Translations under genes and position numbers: made by a program | Origin: an uncultured Elusimicrobium sp. | Lineage (GTDB): Bacteria > Elusimicrobiota > Elusimicrobia > Elusimicrobiales > Elusimicrobiaceae | Length of the DNA stretch: 64,000 nucleotides | Assembly: GCA_902797165.1 (NCBI GenBank) | Contig: CADBRU010000008.1 | Coordinates: 62,001-126,000, forward strand | Reading direction: 5' to 3' | Shown here: piece after piece, positions 58,045 to 59,589 of the stretch | Numbering within the stretch: position 1 is the stretch's first letter | Layout: each line of letters begins with the position of its first letter | Notes under the pieces: model-generated | The model's input: only the letters and a program-made list of their open reading frames with translations | Told to the model about the DNA's origin: nothing | The model's database searches: none

Positions 58045-58060
58045 AAATAACCCTTGACAT

Positions 58061-58090
58061 ATTATATCAAAATTTACTTAAATGATGCAA
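58061..58090 (-). promoter_or_regulatory. promoter of yggS-DUF167
   Basis: On the minus strand TTGCAT (58090-58085), an 18-base spacer, then TATAAT (58066-58061), with a leader of about 15 bases before the ATG. Confidence 0.55.
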
Positions 58091-58109
58091 TTTTTTACGT
58101 CGGCATAGA

Positions 58110-58493
58110 TGAAAAAAGAGCCCTCTGCGTTATTCACACAGAGGACTCTATACTGACGCTTTCATCTTTCTTCCTTTCCTAATGGATACAATGGTCACAA
58201 TACAGTGAATATTTTCGTCTGTTTACTGTGCAAACCGTTCAAGTTCTCGGCACACACTCTCCTACTCAAAGGAAAGACCCGAGACGGGAAAACGGACTAA
58301 TATGCACACCTCACAACCACAAGAAAATATTTTTTTCTGTCTCCAAACCGTACACTTACGTTTCGCCACTCTTCGTGGTTCCCACCGGTACGATCCGATC
58401 AGTTTTATATACGCCGCGCTGCCTTGCATCTCTTGGCAAAACTAACGCAACCTATACATTTTCTGTCTTGCATCCCACTATTCCATCTAGGAT
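58110..58493 (-). ncRNA. candidate structured non-coding RNA, ~380 nt, family unknown
   Basis: No reading frame of note on either strand, but there is a promoter at 58527-58500 and a strong terminator at 58149-58112. Four nested helices form one long arm: 58303-58308/58227-58232 (6 bp), 58291-58295/58235-58239 (5), 58279-58284/58245-58250 (6) and 58270-58276/58257-58263 (7, one G-U). Two more hairpins lie at 58345-58363 and 58366-58378. A 12-base near repeat, GATGCAAGACAG and GATGCAAGGCAG, is in the 5' part. I looked for tmRNA, RNase P RNA and SRP RNA signatures and found none. It fills the 489-base gap between yggS and the regulator gene. Confidence 0.65.
58112..58149 (-). terminator. terminator of the ~380-nt RNA
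   Basis: On the minus strand GAGTCCTCTG pairs with CAGAGGGCTC, then TTTTTT. It is an ideal rho-independent terminator with no gene immediately upstream, which supports a non-coding transcript. Confidence 0.85.
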
Positions 58494-58499
58494 ACTATT

Positions 58500-58527
58500 A
58501 GTATAAGGGTTTTTGCCAAAAAATCAA
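58500..58527 (-). promoter_or_regulatory. promoter of the ~380-nt RNA
   Basis: Minus strand TTGATT (58527-58522), a 16-base spacer, TATACT (58505-58500), just past the stop of the regulator gene at 58534. Confidence 0.6.
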
Positions 58528-58533
58528 GGGCTG

Positions 58534-59202
58534 TTAAAACGGTTTTATGCGTTTAAGCAAAATACCGATTGGTTGCCAATTTGATTTTTTATTTTTGAAT
58601 TTCGGCGTTTTAATTTGGTATTGAATTTTGCCGTTTTTATAATTCGATTGCGCCACGCAAAAATCCCCTTGTTTATCGGTGAGTACCACCCAGTGCGCAG
58701 CGGTGATTTTGCTGCAGGGTTTTATGAAGGACAAATCACTTTCGCAAACGGCATCCGGCAAACCGATTTCTTGACTGCGTACAATATATTTGGCACCTTG
58801 TGCATAGCGGCGGGGGATGCTCCACCATTCCAAAATATTTTCTTCGGGATATTGTGAGAAATCTGCCGGTACATTGGATAAAAACGGTAATTTAACCGTA
58901 TTTTCAATTAAATTATCCGAATAATTAAGAGTAGGTTCGTGTAATGCTTTGTTGTTTTTAGCATTCGGCAAGGGGTAAGAGGTGCCGGAAATATTGTCAA
59001 ATAATTTCAAAACGCCGTAAATATCTAACTTAAATAAGGCGGCCATTTGTTCAATATATCCTTTGGAAGGATGCCTTTTGCCGGTGGCCCATAAGGCGGT
59101 GGTGGCGGTGGATACTTTTAATGTTTTTGCTAACTTGGCCTGTGCGCCTCTTAAGGTGCCGTGATTCCATTCTTTGAGTTGTTTGTCAAATTTGCTTATC
59201 AT
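58534..59202 (-). CDS. LexA/CI-like HTH regulator without the S24 catalytic dyad
   Basis: 222 residues. An N-terminal XRE-type helix-turn-helix (LRGAQAKLAKTLKVSTATTALWATGKRHP) is followed by a C-terminal domain that follows the LexA/CI peptidase pattern (VKLPFLSNVPADF, AKYIVRS..., HWVVLTDKQGDFCVAQ). The catalytic GDSM is replaced by RSQEIGL (142-148), and the Lys position by VAQ (183-185), so self-cleavage is not expected. It probably represses promoters nearby, including its own. GGAG precedes the ATG at 59202. It is flanked by two candidate RNAs. Confidence 0.75.
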   Translation of the reverse strand: MISKFDKQLKEWNHGTLRGAQAKLAKTLKVSTATTALWATGKRHPSKGYIEQMAALFKLDIYGVLKLFDNISGTSYPLPNAKNNKALHEPTLNYSDNLIENTVKLPFLSNVPADFSQYPEENILEWWSIPRRYAQGAKYIVRSQEIGLPDAVCESDLSFIKPCSKITAAHWVVLTDKQGDFCVAQSNYKNGKIQYQIKTPKFKNKKSNWQPIGILLKRIKPF

Positions 59203-59261: not shown

Positions 59262-59291
59262 TTGACAAATACTAACAAAACTTACTATACT
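59262..59291 (+). promoter_or_regulatory. strong promoter of the ~165-nt RNA
   Basis: A perfect TTGACA (59262-59267) and TATACT (59286-59291) with an 18-base spacer. No protein gene follows before a terminator. Confidence 0.7.
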
Positions 59292-59297
59292 AACATT

Positions 59298-59462
59298 GTT
59301 GTAAGTTCTACCGAAGTTCGAATTGTTTTCCTACGGACGGAAAGTGTAACCTAAACACGTTTGGAGAGGGGCCGGCTCTCGGTCCTGCATCATACCCTAG
59401 TGATGTGTTGCTCTCCACTGTCCCGACCGCATATTTCTTGCTCATCTATGCGGTCTTATTCT
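59298..59462 (+). ncRNA. candidate structured non-coding RNA, ~165 nt, family unknown
   Basis: It is bounded by a near-consensus promoter (59262-59291) and a terminator. No reading frame is seen. Hairpins: TTTCC/GGAAA at 59327-59343; GTGT/ACAC at 59344-59358; and an arm closed by GGAGAG/CTCTCC (59363-59368/59411-59416) holding two inner hairpins at 59370-59385 and 59387-59406. The size fits 6S RNA, but the long, single, bulged rod of 6S is not obvious. It may act in trans, or be tied to the adjacent regulator. Confidence 0.65.
59425..59462 (+). terminator. terminator of the ~165-nt RNA
   Basis: GACCGCATA (59425-59433) and TATGCGGTC (59447-59455) form a perfect 9-bp stem followed by TTATTCT. 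Confidence 0.8.
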
Positions 59463-59481
59463 ACCAAAATTAGAGGCACTT

Positions 59482-59573
59482 GAGTTAGTAAAGTTATAAA
59501 TATCCTTTTTGAAATAAGCCGATCTATAAGGGGGATTACTTATTTTTTCGGATAAAAATAACTTTACTAACTC
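59482..59573. repeat. 92-bp inverted-repeat element
   Basis: GAGTTAGTAAAGTTAT (59482-59497) is the exact reverse complement of 59558-59573; after a 3x3 mismatch, TATCC/GGATA adds 5 more pairs. It lies between the terminator at 59462 and a possible micropeptide ORF. No target-site duplication is seen. Confidence 0.65.
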
Positions 59574-59589
59574 TGTTAGTTTTAATACG

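Follow-up and report, generated by a model that had tools for sequence, protein, structure and literature searches.

A 64,000-nucleotide stretch of DNA from an uncultured Elusimicrobium species (here called the window; GenBank assembly GCA_902797165.1, contig CADBRU010000008.1, positions 62,001 to 126,000 of the forward strand) carries a gene for a structured RNA of about 385 nt, RNA1, on its minus strand at positions 58110 to 58498. We propose that RNA1 represents a new family of stand-alone structured RNAs in which a ribosome is recruited to a slot with room for a single ribosome, and that it acts in trans as a translation-coupled regulator, a reading to which we give roughly even chances. 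This family of large structured RNAs is nearly universal in one animal-gut genus and missing from Rfam. It would couple an elaborate fold to the smallest plausible open reading frame (ORF), of which the frame and the stop codon are kept and the peptide is not. If so, RNA1 offers a clean case in which translation serves to act mechanically on an RNA and not to make a product.

A previous sequence-only reading of the locus had described a promoter, a strong terminator, and a structured RNA of about 380 nt. A consensus scan recovered the promoter, TTGATT-16-TATACT, at positions 58527 to 58500 (minus strand), and in relatives TTGNTTT...TATACT is found at the matching position, directly past the stop codon of a repressor gene. 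The 5' end of RNA1 was placed from the -10 box. The terminator was also recovered by the scan, at 58149 to 58117, and is taken as an intrinsic terminator spanning positions 58112 to 58149 (minus strand); it corresponds to covarying helix 10 of A1, the alignment of the window's clade, and the base of its stem overlaps the stop codon of a mini-ORF described below. The 411 nt from 58500 to 58090 (minus strand) have a predicted folding energy of -143.7 kcal/mol (z = -8.17), and 0 of 100 dinucleotide shuffles were equally stable. In the minimum free energy (MFE) fold, the ends of the RNA are joined by the closing helices P1 and P2, whose 5' strand lies at 58475 to 58492 and whose 3' strand lies at 58178 to 58201 (both minus strand). 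These are covarying helices 1 and 2 of A1, and their 3' strand stops right before a Shine-Dalgarno-like (SD-like) sequence.

Further elements of that reading could be placed on this fold. The 82-base arm of four nested helices (UGUGCA/UGCACA, CCGUU/AACGG, UCUCGG/CCGAGA, and CUUUCCU/AGGAGAG) was located in the MFE fold at 58308 to 58227 (minus strand), and it makes up the central domain of the model R1. Among relatives, covariation is seen in the middle of the arm (helices 8 and 9 of A1; helices 6 to 8 of A2, the alignment of the other long-form clade). What had been noticed as a 12-base near repeat is a pair of GACAGAAAA boxes at 58467 to 58459 and 58342 to 58334 (minus strand), the second of which comes right after a conserved AACUG...CGAAGAG hairpin domain. 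Both boxes are kept in long-form relatives, the first in A1 and A2 and the second in A1, A2, and A6 and in the model R2. The statement that the locus has no reading frame holds for long frames, as a 92-amino-acid antisense ORF and a 55-amino-acid sense ORF are both broken in 17 of 17 compared relatives, but it overlooked a five-codon ORF at 58165 to 58148 (minus strand).

Compensatory changes in related genomes, which had been named as potential support for the helices, were found in both long-form clades and in the shorter form. In A1 (18 sequences), 94.8% of the 81 predicted pairs are formed, and both sides change at 45 of the 81 pairs, compared with 21.9 in shuffles. When the partners were slid by 1 to 3 columns, pairing fell to 32 to 46%, a comparison in which the predicted structures are favored over the slid versions because they were derived from the same alignments. 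In A2 (29 sequences), 32 of 51 pairs covary, compared with 22.5 in shuffles, and the compensatory cells number 200, compared with 62.5. The shorter form (A3) shows compensatory changes at 45 of 88 pairs, and nine RNAs of the family have fold z scores between -4.2 and -8.7. With its compensatory changes, its own predicted promoter and terminator, and no conserved long ORF, RNA1 has, as far as sequence comparison can tell, the characteristics of a stand-alone structured noncoding RNA.

Searches against known RNA families returned none that fits. At gathering scores, Rfam matched a single tRNA in the whole window, and RNA1 itself had no match. No family in Rfam 15 exceeded its curated threshold for RNA1 in the window or at 20 homologous loci; a lax search produced chance matches only at the window locus and sub-threshold matches only at the 20 others. 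RNA1 is not the tmRNA of this genome, which lies on contig C13 (RF00023, 128 bits), nor its RNase P RNA, whose true gene is on contig C32 (RF00010, 197 bits), and neither model matches at the RNA1 locus. It is likewise not a 6S or signal recognition particle (SRP) RNA by the models RF00013, RF00169, and RF01854, which do not match the locus. ARAGORN found no tRNA-like domain in RNA1, and a literature search found no report of it. The sequence-only reading had left the choice between a divergent known family and a new large bacterial RNA. The lack of an Rfam match, the presence of tmRNA and RNase P RNA elsewhere, and the covariation support the second option. Separately, the 6S, small SRP, and large SRP models matched nothing in the window's genome or in 12 relatives, while control genomes did give matches; in Elusimicrobiota, SRP RNA may have disappeared or may have diverged strongly.

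The distribution of RNA1 is narrow and, within its range, nearly complete. A blastn search turned up relatives in 15 further genomes of the window's genus, and no relatives were found in phage and plasmid records. The named records of relatives are Elusimicrobiaceae or Elusimicrobiales metagenome-assembled genomes, one of them from yak rectum; a tentative guess is that the genus corresponds to Candidatus Avelusimicrobium. Altogether, about 62 of the 66 genomes of the genus (family Elusimicrobiaceae) have a homologue, in single copy. Two models of separate parts of RNA1, R1 and R2, served to search 341 genomes of the phylum. R1 matched only in the window's genus; R2 matched there too, and its single match outside the genus (in G099) is false, since it lies inside a coding gene. 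RNA1 was undetected in the other 99 genera, an absence that is bounded by the sensitivity of the models, as R1 misses most of the window's own clade. From the stretches downstream of repressor orthologues we assembled 60 RNAs of 313 to 428 nt, each with a -10 box (TATACT or TATAAT) right past the repressor stop codon.

The repressor gene upstream of RNA1, at 58534 to 59202 (minus strand), is predicted from domain and LexA profile matches to encode a CI/LexA-like protein with an XRE helix-turn-helix (HTH) domain and an S24 fold. Orthologues are present in 63 of the 66 genomes of the genus, and there is no clear orthologue in other genera. Within this protein family, which also matches LexA profiles, HTH_3 was found in 13 of 15 members and Peptidase_S24 in 6 of 15. 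The GDSM serine motif of the S24 fold is intact in some relatives (L043, L044, L049, L050, and L055) and lost in the window's clade, which suggests that the repressors of this clade have lost autoproteolysis. Divergent from the repressor gene, at 59297 to 59470 (plus strand), is a second structured RNA of about 165 nt, RNA2. Its promoter, TTGACA-18-TATACT at 59262 to 59291 (plus strand), is conserved genus-wide, with the sequence TTGACAAA..CTAACAAAACTTACTATACTAACA nearly invariant. RNA2 shows compensatory change at 18 of 40 pairs in the window's clade and has no Rfam match. AACTT..ACTAAC half-sites (59278 to 59296) overlap its -10 box, and TTGAGTTAGTAAAGTTA recurs genus-wide past its terminator (59480 to 59580), forming in the window a long inverted repeat with ATAACTTTACTAACTC. 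These half-sites and repeats are likely operators of the HTH-S24 repressor.

Dependence of RNA1 on the repressor could be rejected. Paralogous HTH genes occur without RNA1, and one genome (G060) has RNA1 with its mini-ORF while both the repressor and RNA2 are missing at the locus; RNA1 is therefore more than an accessory of the repressor. Another genome (G041) has the repressor with no RNA1 beside it. RNA2 is part of the local cassette, and RNA1 can do without it in some genome. In a crude test of pairing between RNA1 and RNA2, own pairs were no stronger than swapped ones. On the other side of RNA1, the order in the window's clade is repressor, RNA1, and then yggS with a DUF167 gene. An extended -10 promoter of yggS, TTTAAGTAAATTTTGATATAATATGTCAAGGG, lies at 58045 to 58080 (minus strand) and is nearly invariant in that clade.

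The most telling feature of RNA1 lies between P1 and the terminator. In the window, the SD-like sequence GGAAAGGAAG (58170 to 58179, minus strand), recognized by its duplex with the anti-SD sequence, precedes the mini-ORF AUG AAA GCG UCA GUA UAG (MKASV*; 58148 to 58165, minus strand). All 60 assembled RNAs contain the equivalent arrangement of an SD-like purine stretch, an AUG, four or five sense codons, and a stop codon. Two further RNAs beyond these 60 also have the mini-ORF, and one homologue outside the set (L083) has lost the layout. The mini-ORFs total five or six codons, comprise 42 distinct sequences and 35 peptides among the 60 RNAs, and end in UGA (27), UAG (23), or UAA (10), with the stop codon falling anywhere between 5 nt within the terminator stem and 3 nt ahead of it. 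Such a stop follows only 16 of 290 control AUGs elsewhere in the same RNAs (5.5%; 5.3% in shuffles). The mini-ORF sequences are related and hence are not independent trials, yet as few as ten independent lineages would already leave a chance origin untenable.

Several other properties of this segment bear on the proposed recruitment of a ribosome. The AUG lies 12 to 17 nt past P1. Every one of the 18 A1 sequences has exactly 12 nt here, 24 of the 29 A2 sequences have 14 nt, and the distance from P1 to the terminator is 28 nt in A1. Across the 60 RNAs, the duplex of the SD-like and anti-SD sequences has a median energy of -8.0 kcal/mol at the slot, compared with -4.2 kcal/mol elsewhere in the RNAs; in the short-form clade, the SD-like sequences are weak and in part overlap P1. 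The predicted unpaired probability of the slot is 0.62, compared with 0.33 for the remainder, and it is higher in 60 of 60 RNAs. In the clade whose mini-ORF begins MEEST, UGA, UAA, and UAG interchange at one position, and in one case the exchange comes with a 1-nt deletion and a stop codon that is still in frame. The mini-ORF is the most conserved feature of the RNA1 layout. Because the peptide differs across clades and there is little synonymous codon change within them, what is preserved is either the act of being translated or the RNA sequence itself. Probably the act of translation matters here and the peptide does not.

We envisage that transcription from RNA1's own promoter would yield a transcript of about 385 nt whose 5' and 3' parts pair as P1. 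Past P1, a mostly unpaired slot of about 28 to 35 nt, the size of one ribosome, would be left exposed. To this slot a ribosome, or a 30S subunit with fMet-tRNA, would most likely be recruited, and it would run through a cycle of five or six codons and come to a halt at the terminator hairpin. With no more than 12 to 17 nt between P1 and the AUG, the binding of a ribosome is probably coupled to the closing of the body. A bound ribosome would press on P1 or open it, linking translation to the shape of the roughly 330-nt body; either translation would remodel the body, or the body would gate the entry of the ribosome. RNA1 would then act in trans on a regulated target. Only tentatively do we go further and suggest a new class of bacterial regulatory RNA, a stand-alone folded RNA with its own slot for a single ribosome, in which initiation and termination on a content-free ORF of five or six codons would open or close the body; acting in trans, the RNA would thereby report on the cell's translational state or control it.

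A pairing function is a serious rival to this mechanism, although on balance we consider it unlikely. In that case the stretch from AUG to stop would be untranslated and would serve as an RNA-pairing or protein-binding site, for example through palindromic dimerization, making RNA1 a homodimer or oligomer. Large bacterial RNAs such as GOLLD, ROOL, and OLE do form homo-oligomers (PMC12286853). The center of the mini-ORF is often self-complementary, with GUCGAC, GUGCAC, and CUGCAG (and G-U variants) substituting for one another, and a perfect palindrome of at least 6 nt is present in 18 of the 42 distinct ORFs, compared with 5.2 in shuffles, an excess that relatedness among the sequences inflates. 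Since synonymous changes are few and the center is self-complementary, part of the conservation of the mini-ORF may indeed serve RNA pairing. However, 13 of the 42 distinct sequences lack a palindrome of this kind, also when G-U pairs are counted, whereas the AUG, the frame, and the stop codon are present in all 60 RNAs.

In the lambda bar minigene, a few translated codons tie up tRNA or ribosomes. The mini-ORF of RNA1 could be a toxin or a trap for tRNA or ribosomes of this kind, held in check by the repressor or by RNA2, but we regard this as distinctly unlikely. The CreT RNAs of CreTA modules are a second model: they consist of an SD sequence, an AUG, a mini-ORF of a few codons, and a downstream stable stem-loop, and their effect arises from translation with no peptide needed (PMC8501985). 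The 3' part of RNA1 has this layout (one CreT also has a six-codon ORF), and a repressor gene adjoins it. CreT RNAs are defined by tandem rare codons, and they are recognized by growth arrest on expression that cognate tRNA relieves and by repression through CreA and Cas. In RNA1, tandem identical codons occur in 3 of 42 distinct ORFs and are AAA or GAA, which rank as the commonest codons; tandem rare codons are absent, and the mean relative adaptiveness is 0.65 for the mini-ORFs, compared with 0.76 for gene starts. Moreover, different clades use different codons, a folded body of 330 nt is not something that CreT RNAs require, and universality across the genus together with persistence without the repressor fits a core function better.

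That RNA1 is a dual-function RNA whose product is the peptide of five or six residues is very unlikely. Residues do recur, with M-E-E-S-T-R/K/N in one clade and M-N/K-E-C/S-T in another, but the 35 peptides are unrelated between clades and vary little synonymously within them, which is not the pattern of a conserved peptide. We assign still less probability to a cis-acting role, in which RNA1 would control the gene downstream of it as a leader or attenuator, with the mini-ORF as leader peptide. A leader peptide followed by a terminator is the classical attenuator layout, and yggS does come next on the same strand in the window's clade. Nonetheless, yggS is the next gene in only 17 of 60 loci, and it has a conserved promoter of its own. 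Elsewhere the terminator is followed by an ABC transporter, GTPase, DksA-like, pilin-like, or other gene (names read from translations), and no same-strand downstream gene is conserved across the 60 loci. A cis-acting leader is unlikely because the genes past the terminator differ and are convergent in about half of the loci. Scarcely credible, finally, is a highly diverged housekeeping RNA (SRP, 6S, tmRNA, or RNase P), for although SRP and 6S RNAs went undetected in the genome and its relatives, leaving a role with no candidate, tmRNA and RNase P RNA are already present elsewhere in the genome, inspection by eye shows no SRP domain IV motif in RNA1, a rod of the 6S type is also missing, and RNA1 is confined to one genus as far as detected, whereas SRP RNA is expected phylum-wide.

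RNA1 resembles several known systems in part. Like GOLLD, ROOL, and OLE, it is a large stand-alone bacterial RNA with an elaborate conserved structure and a possible self-pairing site, but it is shorter, matches none of them in sequence or in Rfam, and carries the conserved mini-ORF slot. It shares with tmRNA (RF00023) a similar length, closed ends, and a short ORF inside a structured RNA; its ORF, however, lies at the 3' end and has an SD sequence and an AUG start where tmRNA has a resume codon, and the tRNA-like domain is missing according to ARAGORN. As in leader-peptide attenuators, a tiny ORF has its stop codon abutting a terminator, except that this terminator closes a predicted independent transcript with no conserved downstream gene. 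In functional terms, the closest precedent is CreT, with its matching order of SD sequence, AUG, mini-ORF, and stem-loop. No CRISPR/CreA partner of RNA1 was noticed, and RNA1 differs from CreT in lacking tandem rare codons and in having a covarying body of about 330 nt and the distribution of a core-genome element.
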